Source: Pannonibacter indicus (lineage in GTDB: Bacteria > Pseudomonadota > Alphaproteobacteria > Rhizobiales > Stappiaceae). From it: DNA of 64,000 nucleotides. The number at the start of each line of letters is the position of its first letter. The first letter of the stretch is position 1. Shown here piece by piece: positions 4,899-50,796 of this stretch. The DNA lies in contig NZ_LIPT01000010.1 in NCBI RefSeq assembly GCF_001418225.1, positions 62,001-126,000 of the forward strand, in the 5' to 3' direction. A program made the position numbers and the translations under genes. The notes under the pieces were generated by a model, which saw nothing but the letters and a program-made list of their open reading frames with translations, had not been told where the DNA came from and made no database searches.

Positions 4899-4909
4899 GG
4901 GATATGGCT

Positions 4910-5000
4910 AAAGGTTTCCGTCCCTTCGCCGGCATGACCCGGATCAGGTTCTAAGGGTTCGGCTTTGCGCCATCTCAGCTCACATCGGAGCACCCCTCGG
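4910..5000 (-). promoter_or_regulatory. TPP riboswitch (THI element)
   Basis: On the minus strand the conserved THI-box pieces appear in order: GAGGGGTGC at the 5' side, GCTGAGAT (complement of 4972-4979), ACCCTT, GAACCTGAT (complement of 4943-4951), then GGGTCATGCCGGCGAAGGGA. These form the pyrimidine and pyrophosphate sensor arms of the aptamer. It lies about 60 bases ahead of the thiX start. TPP binding is expected to lower expression of thiX-thiY. Confidence 0.95.
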
Positions 5001-5071
5001 ACCAGCCCGAAACATGCCGCCTGAATGCCGCCTTGGCAAGCAAAACTTGCGGCACCCTGTCACAAAAGCCG

Positions 5072-11257: not shown

Positions 11258-12430
11258 TCAGGCGGCTGCCTGCAAGCGGGCCTTCTGGGCCGCAAAGGCC
11301 CAGTCGAGCCAGGGCAGAAGCGCCGCAACGCTGTCCGGATCCACCGTCGCACCGCACCAGATGCGGAAGCCCGTCGGGGCATCGCGGTAGGAGCCGATGT
11401 CATAGGCGACACCTTCAGCTTCCAGCGCAGAGGCCATGGCCTTGGCGAACGCCGCCTGCCCCGCATCGTCCAGCGCCGTCACCGCCGGATCAACGATCTT
11501 CAGGCAGACGGAGGTGTTGGAGCGCGTGGCCGGATCAACGGCGAGGAAGTCCACCCACGGCGTCTCTTCCACCCAGCGGGCGATATGCCCGGCGCTGGTG
11601 TCGGCGCGGCCGATCAGGGCCTTCAGGCCGCCGATGGAGGATGCCCATTCCAGCGCATCGATATAGTCCTCGACGCAGAGCATGGACGGGGTGTTGATGG
11701 TCTCGCCCTTGAAGATGCCTTCGATCAGCTTGCCCTTGGAGGTCAGGCGGAAAATCTTCGGCAGCGGCCAGGCGGGGGTGTAGCTCTCCAGCCGGGCAAC
11801 GGCGCGCGGGCTGAGGATCAGCATGCCATGCGCGCCTTCACCGCCGAGCGCCTTCTGCCAGGAGAAGGTGACCACATCGAGCTTGGCGAAGTCCAGCTCC
11901 TGCGCGAAAGCGGCGGAGGTGGCATCGCAGATGACGAGGCCTTCCCGGTCTGCCGGGATCCAGTTTGCATCCGGCACGCGCACGCCAGAAGTCGTGCCGT
12001 TCCAGGTGAAGACAACGTCGCGGCTGAAATCGACGCTGCCAAGGTCCGGCAGCTCGCCATAGGGCGCTTCGATGGTGCGGGCATCCAGCTTCAGCTGCTT
12101 GACCACATCGGTCACCCAAGTGGAGCCGAAGCTTTCCCAGGCGAGCATATCAACACCGCGCGCACCGAGCAGGGACCACAGGGCCATCTCGACCGCGCCC
12201 GTGTCCGAGGCCGGAACGATACCGATGCGGTAGTCCGCAGGCACCTCAAGGATCTCACGGGTCTTGTCGATGGCGAGTTCAAGACGGGTCTTGCCGATCT
12301 TGGCGCGGTGGGAGCGGCCAAGGGACTTCACGTCCAGCGCGGCGGCAGACCAGCCGGGGCGCTTGGCGCAAGGACCAGACGAAAAACGGGGATTGGCCGG
12401 GCGCTTTGCCGGCTTCGCAGTCGCTGTCAT
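11258..12430 (-). CDS. serC: phosphoserine aminotransferase
   Basis: SerC transfers an amino group from glutamate to 3-phosphohydroxypyruvate, the second step of serine synthesis, using PLP. The 390-residue product is of the alphaproteobacterial type ([16 protein letters not shown]). The PLP-binding lysine is K193 in [10 protein letters not shown]. The ATG at 12430 has GAGAGG about eight bases upstream, lying inside the second hairpin of the serC leader, so translation is probably controlled there. It is followed by serA. Confidence 0.96.
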
Positions 12431-12432
12431 AT

Positions 12433-12472
12433 GCTATCCTCTCAGATAGGCGCTCCTCGTTGGGGAGGAGTG
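12433..12472 (-). promoter_or_regulatory. serC leader RNA motif
   Basis: Two adjacent hairpins precede serC in the transcript: CTCCTCC/GGAGGAG-like (complement of 12453-12470) and CTATCTGAGAGGATAG (complement of 12434-12449). The second contains the serC ribosome-binding GAGAGG. This agrees with the known alphaproteobacterial serC motif, whose last stem overlaps the ribosome site. The ligand or effector is not established. Confidence 0.8.
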
Positions 12473-12546
12473 TCCCACTGACTTGGATATGCCCTTCCGG
12501 CAGGCCGGTCAAGCCGGATGGAGCCTTGCAGCGCTGCAAAGCGAAA

Positions 12547-13507: not shown

Positions 13508-13523
13508 TTAAAGGGTGCTTAAC
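13508..13523 (-). promoter_or_regulatory. CtrA-like binding site upstream of the outer-membrane protein gene
   Basis: TTAAAGGGTGCTTAAC matches the full CtrA consensus TTAA-N7-TTAAC. A weaker match, TTAA-N7-TAAAC, follows at 13551-13566. The site lies 85-100 bases before the ATG at 13423. Binding has not been shown. Confidence 0.55.
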
Positions 13524-13593
13524 CGTATTTCTTTACCAGGATTTTTTACCTTAACCCAAGGTAAACAAGAGAGATCACGTTAGGACTTCATTA

Positions 13594-13625
13594 ATAAAAA
13601 GGCACCCGCCTCTCCAGCGGATGCC
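13594..13625 (-). terminator. terminator downstream of glmM
   Basis: On the minus strand GGCATCCGC and GCGGGTGCC form a stem that is followed directly by TTTTTATT. It lies 125 bases past the glmM stop. Confidence 0.75.
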
Positions 13626-33399: not shown

Positions 33400-33560
33400 G
33401 CACCGGCGGGCCGCAGATCCGGCCCTCGGAAGAATTGTTAAAGTGCAGCCACGGCGACCGTTGGAATTGCAATCCCGGGAAACCTACAGTGTAGGTGGGC
33501 GCCGTGTGTTCCAGCCCAGGGGCCGGATCAGGGACAGCTCCCTAGGGAATGCGTAAGGCC
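33400..33560 (-). ncRNA. ssrS: 6S RNA (SsrS), boundaries approximate
   Basis: Between zapA and fau the minus strand folds into the 6S shape. A perfect 10-bp closing stem GATCCGGCCC/GGGCCGGATC (complement of 33520-33529 and 33416-33425) is followed by a large internal bubble (CTGGGCTGGAACA opposite about 24 bases). An inner stem CACGGCG/CGCCGTG (33500-33506 with 33450-33456) is topped by a further loop. 6S RNA binds the housekeeping polymerase as a promoter mimic. Position and fold agree; the exact ends were not determined, and a possible promoter lies near 33600-33630. Confidence 0.7.
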
Positions 33561-33678
33561 CCGGGGATAATGTTTCCTGACGGGAAGCGCAGCTGCTGAA
33601 CCAGATATAGAGCCAGAGCGCTGCATTTGAAAGCCCTTCGCGCAACCGCAGGCGTCATCGTCCCCCGCAGGGCTGCAT

Positions 33679-47430: not shown

Positions 47431-48165
47431 TCAGAAGCGGTAGTCGTCTTCGTCCTCGCCGTCGTTCTTCTTCGAGCCCTTGAGCGCGTTGAGCTTGGCG
47501 AAGACCGCATCGGCGTCGATCTCTTCTTCCACTTCGCGCTGCGGGAGGTCGCGGGTGAAGGCGGCGGCGATGGCCTCCTCGCTCGTGGTGTCTTCCACCG
47601 GCGCCAGCAGTTCGGTGTAGTCGGTCTCCGGACGCGGCGGGGCGTTCTTGGCGGCCTTTTCAACCTCCATGTCCAGCTCAAGCTGGCTGCACAGGCCCAG
47701 CGTCACCGGGTCGGATGCCGTCAGGTTGGACGAGTTCCAGTGGGTGCGCTCACGGATGGCAGCGATGGTCGGCTTGGTGGTGCCGACAAGGCGCATGATC
47801 TGCGCATCCTTCAGCTCGGGATGGTTGCGCACCAGCCAGAGAATCGCATTCGGGCGGTCCTGACGGCGCGACACCGGGGTGTAGCGCGGGCCACGGCGCT
47901 TGCTTTCCGGCACGACGACCTTGGAGCTCTGCAGCTTCAGCTGATAGTTCGGATCACGCTGCGCACGCTCGATTTCCTCGCGGCTGAGCTGACCGGTCAT
48001 CACCGGATCCAGACCCTTGATGCCCTGTGCGGCTTCACCGTCAGCGATTGCCTTCACTTCCAGCGGATGCAGTTTGCAGAAGGCGGCGATCTGGGTGAAG
48101 CTCAGCGCCGTGTTGTCCACCAGCCAGACGGCAGTAGCCTTCGGCATTAGAGGCGTGTTCGACAT
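47431..48165 (-). CDS. trcR: cell cycle transcriptional regulator TrcR (DUF1013)
   Basis: The 244-residue protein matches the alphaproteobacterial DUF1013 family, called TrcR in Caulobacter. It begins MSNTPLMPKATAVWLVDNTA, then LSFTQIAAFCKLHPLEVKAI and NAILWLVRNHPELKDAQIMR, two predicted helix-turn-helix-like units. It ends in an acidic tail (EDEDDYRF). The known member is a polymerase-associated regulator of cell-cycle genes. The start at ATG 48165 has GAGGA 11 bases upstream; the longer frame to 48411 is not conserved-looking. Its neighbours in the cell-cycle context are rcdA (50257) and the CtrA-like boxes noted elsewhere. Confidence 0.88.
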   Translation of the reverse strand: MSNTPLMPKATAVWLVDNTALSFTQIAAFCKLHPLEVKAIADGEAAQGIKGLDPVMTGQLSREEIERAQRDPNYQLKLQSSKVVVPESKRRGPRYTPVSRRQDRPNAILWLVRNHPELKDAQIMRLVGTTKPTIAAIRERTHWNSSNLTASDPVTLGLCSQLELDMEVEKAAKNAPPRPETDYTELLAPVEDTTSEEAIAAAFTRDLPQREVEEEIDADAVFAKLNALKGSKKNDGEDEDDYRF

Positions 48166-48352
48166 CGGTGTAAAATCCTCCTGTCGGCTCCCTCGCCCGG
48201 CAAGGCGAAAAAGCGGTATTCCAAGTTTGAATGAATGGGAGATTGACAACAATATAGGCTGAGACGGCTTAAAAGGCAAACGCGCAAGCGCGCCTGCCTC
48301 AAAGAATCTCGACCCTTTCTGCCGAAGCGTCAGACGGCACCACCACCGCTGC

Positions 48353-49375
48353 CTAGACGGTGAGGACAATCTTGCCGATATGGCCCGAGCCTTCCATCCG
48401 CCGGTGCGCATCGGCGGCCCGATCCAGCGGGAAAGTCGAATCCATCACCGGCCGGATGGTGCCATTTGCGATCAGCGGCCAGACATGCGCCTCAAGAGCC
48501 GCCGCAATCGCCGCCTTGAAGTCATTATCGCGCGGGCGCAGGGTCGATCCGGTGTGAATGAGACGCTTCATCATCAGGCGGTTGAAGTTCACCTCCGTGG
48601 CCACCCCGTTGAGATTGGCAATCTGGCAGATGCGCCCCTCGACAGCCGCAACCTGCCAGTTCTTCTCGACATAATCGCCGCCCACCATGTCGAGGATGAC
48701 GTGGATGCCCGCCCCGCCCGTGATGCGGCCGATCTCCTCGACGAAATCCTGGGTGTTGTAGTTGATGGCGTGATCCGCCCCGAGCTTCAGCACCGCCTGG
48801 CGCTTGTCCTCCGAGCCCACGGTGGTGAAGACTTCGGCACCAAAGGCCTTGGCCAGCTGGATTGCCGTGGTGCCAATGCCGGAGGTGCCGCCATGCACCA
48901 GAAAGCGTTCCCCGGCCTTCAGCCCCACCCGGTCGAACACATTGCTCCAGACGGTGAAGAAGGTTTCCGGCAGAGCCGCAGCTTCCACGATCGAAAGACC
49001 GGAAGGCACTGGCAGCGCGTGGCGCTCGTCCACCTTGCAGTATTCGGCATAGCCGCCGCCCGCCACAAGCGCGGTCACCTGATCACCGATGTTGAACCGC
49101 CCGGCCCCCGGGCCACGGTCCACCACCGTACCGGCCACTTCAAGGCCCGGCAGGTCGGACGCGCCCTTTGGGGCCGGATAAAGCCCCATGCGCTGCATCA
49201 CATCCGGCCGGTTGACGCCCGCCGCCTCGACCTTGATGAGGATTTCGCCTTTTTGTGCCACCGGCAGATGCCGCTTCTCCGGCGCCAGCACATCCGGTCC
49301 GCCGGGAACCGGAATCGCCATCACGGTCATCTCCTGCGGCAAGCCGGGCGGAATACTGGACGGAATGGCGGACAT
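48353..49375 (-). CDS. NAD(P)H-quinone oxidoreductase (zeta-crystallin type)
   Basis: The 340-residue protein belongs to the zinc-independent medium-chain dehydrogenases that reduce quinones one electron at a time. It has GEILIKVEAAGVNRPDVMQR, the cofactor loop FLVHGGTSGIGTTAIQLAKA and ILDMVGGDYVEKN. The catalytic-zinc cysteines and structural-zinc cysteines of alcohol dehydrogenases are absent. It resembles the PIG3/QOR group. GGGAGA precedes the ATG. It lies alone on the minus strand, divergent from a DUF1192 gene. Confidence 0.9.
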   Translation of the reverse strand: MSAIPSSIPPGLPQEMTVMAIPVPGGPDVLAPEKRHLPVAQKGEILIKVEAAGVNRPDVMQRMGLYPAPKGASDLPGLEVAGTVVDRGPGAGRFNIGDQVTALVAGGGYAEYCKVDERHALPVPSGLSIVEAAALPETFFTVWSNVFDRVGLKAGERFLVHGGTSGIGTTAIQLAKAFGAEVFTTVGSEDKRQAVLKLGADHAINYNTQDFVEEIGRITGGAGIHVILDMVGGDYVEKNWQVAAVEGRICQIANLNGVATEVNFNRLMMKRLIHTGSTLRPRDNDFKAAIAAALEAHVWPLIANGTIRPVMDSTFPLDRAADAHRRMEGSGHIGKIVLTV

Positions 49376-49673: not shown

Positions 49674-49880
49674 ATGAGTGAAGACAACATCTGGGCTGCG
49701 CCAAAGGCAGCTTCGGCGGTCTTTGTTCCGGGCAGTGATCTCTCGCGCCTGTCTGTGACCGAGCTGCAGACAGAGATCTCCAACCTGCAAGCAGAGATCG
49801 TCCGTCTTCAGCGGGAAATTGACGCCAGAAGCGGTGTTCGCGCAGCAGCCGATGCACTGTTCAAGCCATCATCCTCGTGA
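49674..49880 (+). CDS. small DUF1192 protein
   Basis: The 68-residue product has the DUF1192 pattern: a short N-terminal stretch, LSRLSVTELQTEISNLQAEIVRLQREIDAR as a coiled coil, and a serine-rich end. DUF1192 proteins are short cytoplasmic helical proteins of unknown function in alphaproteobacteria, often beside a quinone oxidoreductase as here. The start at ATG 49674 is supported by GAGGAGGAGAAGG just upstream; the longer frame to 49617 is not needed. Confidence 0.85.
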   Translation: MSEDNIWAAPKAASAVFVPGSDLSRLSVTELQTEISNLQAEIVRLQREIDARSGVRAAADALFKPSSS

Positions 49881-49974
49881 GGAGAGAAAAATCCCAGCAT
49901 CCCTAGACCGTTAAAGGTGGCTAACGGAACGGCATCATTAAAATTTTATTCATTTACGTCATATTAAGCCTTCT

Positions 49975-50085
49975 GGGAGATAACTGTGAATGTCCAGTTA
50001 TCTGGATTCCTGAGTGGCTCCTGTCCACTCTGTTTGACGCCTCCCTGTTAATGACTTCGAGCCGCGCGCGCGCGGCTCTTTTTTT
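49975..50085 (+). ncRNA. candidate trans-acting small RNA with three hairpins
   Basis: A TATTAA -10 element (49962-49967) stands eight bases before a G-start at 49975. The transcript would form hairpin 1 (AGATAACTG/CAGTTATCT, 49978-50003), hairpin 2 (GAGTGG/CCACTC, 50012-50030, loop CTCCTGT), a single-stranded GCCTCCCTG, and a terminator hairpin (GAGCCGCGCG/CGCGCGGCTC, 50059-50078) with seven T. The CUCCU and CCUCCC stretches could pair with ribosome sites of target mRNAs. Size (about 111 bases) and layout resemble Hfq-binding alphaproteobacterial small RNAs of the AbcR/alpha-r type, but I cannot assign a family. It lies in a 376-base gap with no other gene. Confidence 0.72.
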
Positions 50086-50256
50086 CGCCATCGTGACATT
50101 GTAAGCAGGGATTCGGTTTACCGCAGCGCCATGGGCGCAGCGGCTGGCACGGCAGTTGCTCTTCATCCTGTCAAGAAATCCGCGCGTTTCAAATCGGAAC
50201 AGGAGCGGATGGCTGGTCCGGACAAGGACCGGGGTCAAATGAGAAGGCGTTAACCC

Positions 50257-50796
50257 ATGACGGACGAAACCAGGAAGCTCAGCATCGTGCCGGAAACGGT
50301 CAGCTTCGCAGACCGCCTTGCCGCATCCCAGCAGTTCCAGGCGCTGTTTCATGAGGGCATGGCCCTCGTGGAAGAGACGGCCGCCTATCTGGACGGCAAC
50401 GGCCGCAGTGAATCGAAGCGGCTGGAGCGCCCTGCCTCGCTTGCCTATGCCACCGAATCCATGCGCCTGACGACGCGCCTCATGCAGCTCGCCTCCTGGC
50501 TGCTGCTGCAGCGCGCGGTCAACGAAGGCGAGATATCGCCTGATCAGGCCAGCACCGACAAGAATCGCGTGCGCCTCGACCGCCTGAGCAGCGCCAATTC
50601 GGGCAATTCCTTTGATGCCCTGCCGCTGCGCCTGCAGGACCTGATTCTGCGCTCCGTGCGCCTGCAGGAGCGGGTGCAGCATCTGGATGCCATGCTCTAT
50701 CCGGTGGAAGAAAAGCCGGAAGAGCTGGTTCCGGCCGAAAACCCGGTGGCCCAGCAGATCGACCGCATCTTTGCGGCCTTCGGCAAGGCTGGCTGA
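50257..50796 (+). CDS. rcdA: RcdA family protein (DUF1465), regulator of CtrA degradation
   Basis: The 179-residue protein matches the DUF1465/RcdA family (VSFADRLAASQQFQALFHEG, YATESMRLTTRLMQLASWLL, LQDLILRSVRLQERVQHLDAML), predicted as a three-helix bundle with a disordered tail. In Caulobacter RcdA is an adaptor that with CpdR and PopA delivers CtrA and other substrates to ClpXP. Its presence fits a CtrA-controlled cell cycle in this organism. The ATG at 50257 comes right after the GCGTTAACCC spacer; the upstream small RNA ends 171 bases before it. Confidence 0.86.
   Translation: MTDETRKLSIVPETVSFADRLAASQQFQALFHEGMALVEETAAYLDGNGRSESKRLERPASLAYATESMRLTTRLMQLASWLLLQRAVNEGEISPDQASTDKNRVRLDRLSSANSGNSFDALPLRLQDLILRSVRLQERVQHLDAMLYPVEEKPEELVPAENPVAQQIDRIFAAFGKAG

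Follow-up and report, generated by a model that had tools for sequence, protein, structure and literature searches.

The interval 49946-50085 on the forward strand is a genuine small RNA gene and a member of the BjrC1505 family (Rfam RF02356), located between a DUF1192 gene and rcdA in the 64,000-nucleotide stretch of Pannonibacter indicus DNA that we analysed (the window). Our computations establish its family membership, three covarying hairpins, a strongly conserved CU-rich single-stranded tail, a strong terminator, and a promoter-like stretch of its own that carries a conserved CtrA-consensus box over the -35 position. The most likely explanation, which we hold with moderate confidence, is that this gene encodes a CtrA-activated BjrC1505 sRNA that would pair with the ribosome-binding sites of several mRNAs. 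The kind of gene is already known, as a listed sRNA family; the parts that we consider worth pursuit are the CtrA-type promoter and the extension of the family to the Rhizobiaceae, together with the RNA Sm84 of Sinorhizobium meliloti.

Family membership and transcript anatomy

The RF02356 model matches 49946-50085 (+) with a score of 106.3 bits, where the threshold is 50 and E = 1.4e-19 for the whole 64-kb window; the match is full length, covering model positions 1-140 of 140. A first-pass annotation had called this RNA unassigned and had recommended a search with Rfam covariance models; that search returned BjrC1505, a family that Rfam already lists, well over threshold and far above chance. 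Membership is apparent both from the over-threshold score across the whole model and from hairpins with compensatory changes in an alignment that takes in the window's copy. BjrC1505 and the window RNA have in common the three hairpins, the GUUUGACGCCUCCCUGUU tail and the terminator, and no feature excludes membership. The P. indicus genome contains one BjrC1505 copy. Folding of the 111 bases first proposed as the transcript yields -40.6 kcal/mol against a shuffle mean of -28.2 (z = -3.94), more stable than 200/200 dinucleotide shuffles, and a model derived from our alignment (R1, of which the window copy, L001, is a part) matches 49981-50085 with 101.2 bits. The family was reportedly originally described in Madhugiri 2012. 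That description aside, we found no function for BjrC1505 in the literature, where we met the name in a table on another genus and did not meet RF02356; we likewise found no literature on CtrA, sRNA, Bradyrhizobium and TTAA in combination.

The predicted transcript, supported by the RF02356 and R1 matches, spans 49991-50085 (+). Because GATAAC (49979-49984) fits the -10 element of the homologue profile, transcription probably starts near 49991, give or take a few bases, and a length of ~95 nt is more likely than the 111 bases of the first-pass annotation. The RF02356 model starts ~45 nt upstream of this predicted start and therefore seemingly includes promoter sequence.

To define the conserved structure we drew on homologues from Rfam searches of genomes and one pattern scan (matches listed), which gave 164 loci and, at <78% identity, 90 representatives. 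Of these, 84 entered alignment A1; L107, L109 and L163 were left out for a cut or odd terminator, and L025, L030 and L134 as divergent. Hairpin 1 (49992-50007, +) pairs GTCCAG (49992-49997) with CTGGAT (50002-50007), with 6/6 pairs changed on both sides and 86.5% of cells paired. Hairpin 2 (50012-50030, +) pairs GAGTGG (50012-50017) with CCACTC (50025-50030) around the loop CTCCTGT, again with 6/6 pairs changed on both sides and 92.3% of cells paired. The single-stranded tail TTTGACGCCTCCCTGTT (50033-50049, +), a likely pairing region whose widest-kept part is CTCCCTGTT, is followed by an intrinsic terminator (50059-50085, +) with a 7-bp stem, GAGCCGC (50059-50065) with GCGGCTC (50072-50078), and seven T (50079-50085); here 98.6% of cells are paired and 4/7 pairs have changed on both sides. 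The second hairpin with its 6-bp stem and CTCCTGT loop, the unpaired stretch with GCCTCCCTG and the terminator with seven T had all been described in the first-pass annotation and are all present in the sequence. Its first hairpin, a 9-bp stem of AGATAACTG (49978-49986) and CAGTTATCT (49995-50003), has to be replaced by GTCCAG/CTGGAT, as its 5' arm is the -10 region; we rejected it as a conserved element after finding a perfect 9-bp stem there in 3/90 dereplicated loci, the window's own included.

Covariation of the stems in related genomes, on which the first-pass annotation had staked its reading, is evident. Across the 84 aligned homologues, 16/19 base pairs of the given, author-named three-hairpin structure have changed on both sides, against a mean of 7.2 in shuffled alignments, and 0/500 shuffles reach 16. 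In total 92.9% of cells pair, and none of the 500 shuffles matches any of five observed measures. The covariation score is 0.189; shuffles score 0.108, and sliding the partners gives no more than 0.075 and lowers pairing to 34-52%. Run with no preset structure, RNAalifold recovered the terminator along with a second, doubtful helix.

The two CU-rich motifs to which the first-pass annotation drew attention fare differently within the family. The single-stranded CUCCCUGUU is the widest-kept part of the RNA, unlike the hairpin-2 loop, which varies among homologues (e.g. TTGGAG, ATCTCAT, TTTCG), so that CTCCTGT is not maintained family-wide. Loci from the pattern scan had been chosen by a pattern containing the tail and were therefore left out of tail-conservation counts; among the 59 loci from the P. 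indicus genome, the class sample and the relatives sample, all found by a model that itself scores the tail, CTCCCTGTT is present in 53. The loci lacking the tail include L016, L027 and L029, the last being a false match over a tRNA-Lys gene.

A CtrA-type promoter

Upstream of the predicted start lies the site TTTACGTCATATTAA (49953-49967, +), which agrees with TTAA-N7-TTAA, the CtrA consensus, at 7 of 8 positions. The -10 element GATAAC (49979-49984, +) follows 11 nt after it, the spacing of the homologue profile, so that the arrangement of a CtrA-regulon promoter, TTAA-N7-TTAA over the -35, is present in the window with one mismatch. A second, abutting 7-of-8 match, TTAAAATTTTATTCA (49938-49952, +), lies in an AT-rich stretch and may be due to chance.

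The box is kept across the family. Among 88 of the 90 representatives (two had too little upstream sequence), 83 carry TTAA-N7-TTAA with at most one mismatch before the -10, and 46 carry a perfect box; as the homologues are related, these are not 83 independent events. Fifty dinucleotide shuffles of the same promoters gave means of 6.9 (at most one mismatch) and 0.6 (perfect), with maxima of 13 and 3. A far-upstream control stretch gave 1/88 and 0, and other spacers (3-6 and 8-11) in the same 88 promoters gave at most 29 and 2. In 15 further diverged loci the box is present in 14 (9 perfect), as opposed to 0/15 in a control stretch. A profile of 99 promoters, in which the box positions are set by selection and the other positions are free, reads roughly G-TTAAC-N6-TTAAGC-N-TT, with a -10-like TAT (T 64%, A 78%, T 63%) beginning 11 nt past the second TTAA.

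Together, these comparisons suggest that the sRNA promoter is activated by the cell-cycle master regulator CtrA. The first-pass annotation had proposed a tie to the cell cycle from the position beside rcdA, and the CtrA-type promoter, a feature that it missed, strengthens that proposal. According to PMC2877005, prediction and experiment concur on CtrA consensus sites in several alphaproteobacteria, and its cluster A has kept the predicted control of RcdA by CtrA. Elsewhere in the window, three TTAA-N7-TTAA matches, one of them perfect, fall within 90 bases at 13508-13594, a possible CtrA-type promoter cluster.

It is possible, if on the whole unlikely, that the sRNA and its pairing are as we describe but that the box serves a different regulator or simply belongs to a sigma-70 promoter, with no role in the cell cycle and a function in stress or nutrient responses, as for SorX, SorY and MmgR. 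On the same 3' module the models of these three RNAs give sub-threshold scores; SorX is a repressor of a polyamine transporter (PMC9438474), and the table row for Sm84 names an s70 promoter and six letters for microarray conditions. Against this reading, the box has the spacer of exactly 7 bases and the position over the -35 that characterise CtrA sites, and rcdA and the nearby TrcR gene are cell-cycle genes. We give very little credence to a further reading, that the RNA is derived from the 3' UTR of the DUF1192 gene: the gene, which has the same orientation, ends at 49880, and SorX is a precedent, but the conserved box and -10 separate the RNA from the DUF1192 stop.

Genomic neighbourhood and distribution

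The CtrA-activated sRNA that we favour sits in a conserved neighbourhood. Upstream is the DUF1192 gene (49674-49880, +; Pfam PF06698, E = 1.9e-16) and downstream, on the same strand as the sRNA, is rcdA (50257-50796, +; Pfam PF07323, E = 1.5e-58), DUF1465 being RcdA. The order DUF1192, sRNA, rcdA is widely maintained among homologue loci; of 175 loci whose core was located (from 181 loci, some sharing a genome), 150 have same-strand rcdA within 1.5 kb downstream. Family, covariation and synteny thus back the first-pass description of a trans-acting type of sRNA with exposed CU-rich (anti-Shine-Dalgarno) sequence beside rcdA.

This linkage bears on whether the element acts in cis, as a terminated leader or attenuator of rcdA and not as a free sRNA, a reading to which we give little credence. 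The two lie on the same strand, with 171 nt from the T run to the rcdA start, and rcdA comes next in the 150 loci just mentioned. By contrast, 11 dereplicated loci showed no rcdA within 1.5 kb (in L022 it lies just past this limit), and 9 of them keep the box, which therefore seems to be the sRNA's rather than that of rcdA. In addition, 29/73 loci carry a further TTAA-N7-TTAA between the terminator and rcdA (16 perfect; none in the window), and Sm84 ran as a band of ~80 nt, both of which argue against a cis element.

Distribution was assessed in two samples. In the relatives sample, which includes P. indicus, the Rfam model matches 56/61 genomes, 54 of them over threshold; in the even class sample it matches 30/289 (14 over threshold) and the alignment-built model 53/289. 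DUF1465 is present in 107/289 class-sample genomes, 106 of which were examined for the RNA (the weakest, G100, was left out); 41 of the 106 also have the RNA, with DUF1465 at most 5 kb downstream on the same strand in 27 of the 41. RF02356 was found in none of 14 control genomes, among them Caulobacter vibrioides, although this species has DUF1465. One locus (L019, G210:C10:20-128 and 217-327) has a tandem pair of sRNA copies before DUF1465, with a third match elsewhere, on another contig; the SorX model scores both tandem copies below its threshold.

Several other features of the window were recorded. TrcR (PF06242, named transcriptional cell cycle regulator) is encoded at 47431-48411 (-), beside a zinc-dehydrogenase-type gene that adjoins DUF1192, and a 242-codon open frame at 49954-50682 (-), antisense to the sRNA and rcdA, is probably spurious. 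A TPP riboswitch (4904-5007, -) and a serC leader (12429-12480, -) both score over their Rfam thresholds, and 6S RNA lies at 33442-33598 (-). As 6S is also upstream on the opposite strand in S. meliloti Ak57, ~13 kb from the sRNA, the neighbourhood seems old.

Diverged orthologues and Sm84 of S. meliloti

Diverged orthologues below the Rfam threshold precede rcdA in the Rhizobiaceae, a strain of S. meliloti included. In the family of a Mesorhizobium, Rhizobiaceae in GTDB, 138/151 genomes match the alignment-built model, and 9 of the 13 non-matching genomes are at most 2.6 Mb. Fifteen loci hand-picked among the weaker of the 138 matches, the diverged set used above for the box, have same-strand RcdA downstream in 15/15, with TTTCTCCCTGTTTTACC replacing the usual tail in 13/15. 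S. meliloti Ak57 (CP090106.1, labelled pSymB, 3.7 Mb) has the order DUF1192, RNA, DUF1465, an R1 match of 40.4 bits and a perfect TTAA-N7-TTAA before the RNA; a second perfect box lies between the sRNA terminator and rcdA (L327, 2676-2690). At threshold, Rfam finds 6S and no RF02356 in 19 kb around this locus.

A transcript at what appears to be the same place has been observed in S. meliloti 1021. According to PMC2573895 and PMC2873474, Sm84/SmelC671 (2986421-2986520, +) lies between SMc03988 and SMc03989, both on the plus strand, and downstream of 6S, which is on the other strand; it gave a Northern band of ~80 nt and measured 100 nt by sequencing. The position between two same-strand genes, downstream of an opposite-strand 6S, is shared with Ak57, and on this gene order Sm84/SmelC671 is probably the S. 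meliloti orthologue of the BjrC1505 RNA; 6S lies 14.3 kb away in strain 1021 and ~13 kb away in Ak57. The Sm84/Ak57 RNA differs from the window RNA in its tail, UUUUUCUCCCUGUUUU without GACGC, and in a score under the Rfam threshold.

Predicted pairing with rcdA and other mRNAs

In S. meliloti the proteolysis of CtrA depends on rcdA. We compared the pairing of the tail with rcdA start regions and with other starts. The rcdA regions pair better (medians -14.75 versus -11.8 kcal/mol, n = 134 and 613), an edge that persists after Shine-Dalgarno strength is subtracted (p = 5e-4, relatedness uncorrected), and GGCGU occurs in 29% of rcdA start regions versus 5.7% of other starts. Matching each sRNA with its cognate rcdA gave no better pairing than permuted combinations, as 23.5% of permutations did as well. 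Within single genomes, where control genes came from a crude gene finder and the rcdA start region was added by hand, the pairing of rcdA is equalled or surpassed by 14/174 control genes in one genome and by 37/290 in another; when Shine-Dalgarno strength is allowed for, the numbers are 7/174 and 14/290. These data point weakly to rcdA as a candidate target of the sRNA.

The target search with both CU-rich motifs that the first-pass annotation had suggested was also run, and it yielded no convincing target on inspection of 60 of the 157 + 127 complement matches (loop, tail) in the P. indicus genome. Complements of the loop CTCCTGT are not in excess there (84+73 versus 78+88 for the control) and the loop varies, and we rejected it as a general pairing motif; complements of the tail show little excess (50+77 versus 53+49).

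Discussion

Under the explanation that we favour, phosphorylated CtrA would activate the promoter, and the RNA would be made while CtrA is active. CUCCCUGUU, with the flanking GACGC in the P. indicus lineage, would pair with the Shine-Dalgarno regions of several mRNAs and lower their translation, probably with the assistance of Hfq at the U-rich 3' end; rcdA is an unproven candidate among such targets. With a CtrA-type promoter kept over so many homologues, a widespread sRNA would become part of the cell-cycle network of Alphaproteobacteria. A more specific proposal, tentative and in our judgement unlikely, is that a CtrA-activated sRNA, kept in front of rcdA across Hyphomicrobiales and some other Alphaproteobacteria, dampens RcdA translation, through which CtrA would delay its own proteolysis via RNA. 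If this were true, part of what the literature describes as a CtrA site upstream of rcdA would be the promoter of the BjrC1505 sRNA.

Published data from S. meliloti are compatible with a CtrA-driven RNA in this gap. In PMC4433202, CtrA is bound before rcdA in ChIP-seq, rcdA mRNA is unchanged on CtrA depletion, and rcdA is essential; the terms 'sRNA' and 'small RNA' do not appear in its main text. A CtrA-driven sRNA would fit binding before rcdA that has no effect on rcdA mRNA, and so would a second box. As the second box is nearer to rcdA in the S. meliloti strain examined, the ChIP peak alone cannot decide between them. S. meliloti would allow a direct test of CtrA control: CtrA-depletion strains of it have been made (PMC4433202), and the expressed RNA Sm84 is probably the orthologue.

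The first-pass annotation had likened the exposed motifs of the window RNA to those of AbcR-type repressors, a link that is unsupported: no AbcR-named family is among the Rfam matches listed up to E 10 (Rfam 15 may lack an AbcR model), and AbcR1/2 of S. meliloti are in tandem (PMC7143759), unlike the single copy here. We set AbcR identity aside for want of a listed match. EcpR1 is another sRNA of Rhizobiales with a link to the cell cycle; its GC-rich loop UCCGCCGCAUCU and its position downstream of divK-pleD (PMC4414408) distinguish it, as it lies in a different place and the loop is absent from 49946-50085, and identity with EcpR1 was rejected. MmgR (RF00519) has CCUCCCU before its terminator, as does the window RNA, which scores 24.0 bits with that model, under the threshold of 41; a separate MmgR locus in the P. 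indicus genome (G000:C7) scores 62.7 bits. In SorX and SorY of Rhodobacter (RF02784, RF02651), CUCCCUGUUG is followed by a GC-rich terminator, as in the window RNA, which scores far under threshold with both models (16.5 bits versus 46.6 for SorX, 20.5 versus 111 for SorY); one BjrC1505-type locus scores 38.5 bits with the SorX model, still below 46.6. SorX is a 3'-UTR-derived RNA that inhibits potA translation in an Hfq-dependent manner (PMC9438474), and with its similar 3' module it provides a precedent for the mode of pairing that we propose.
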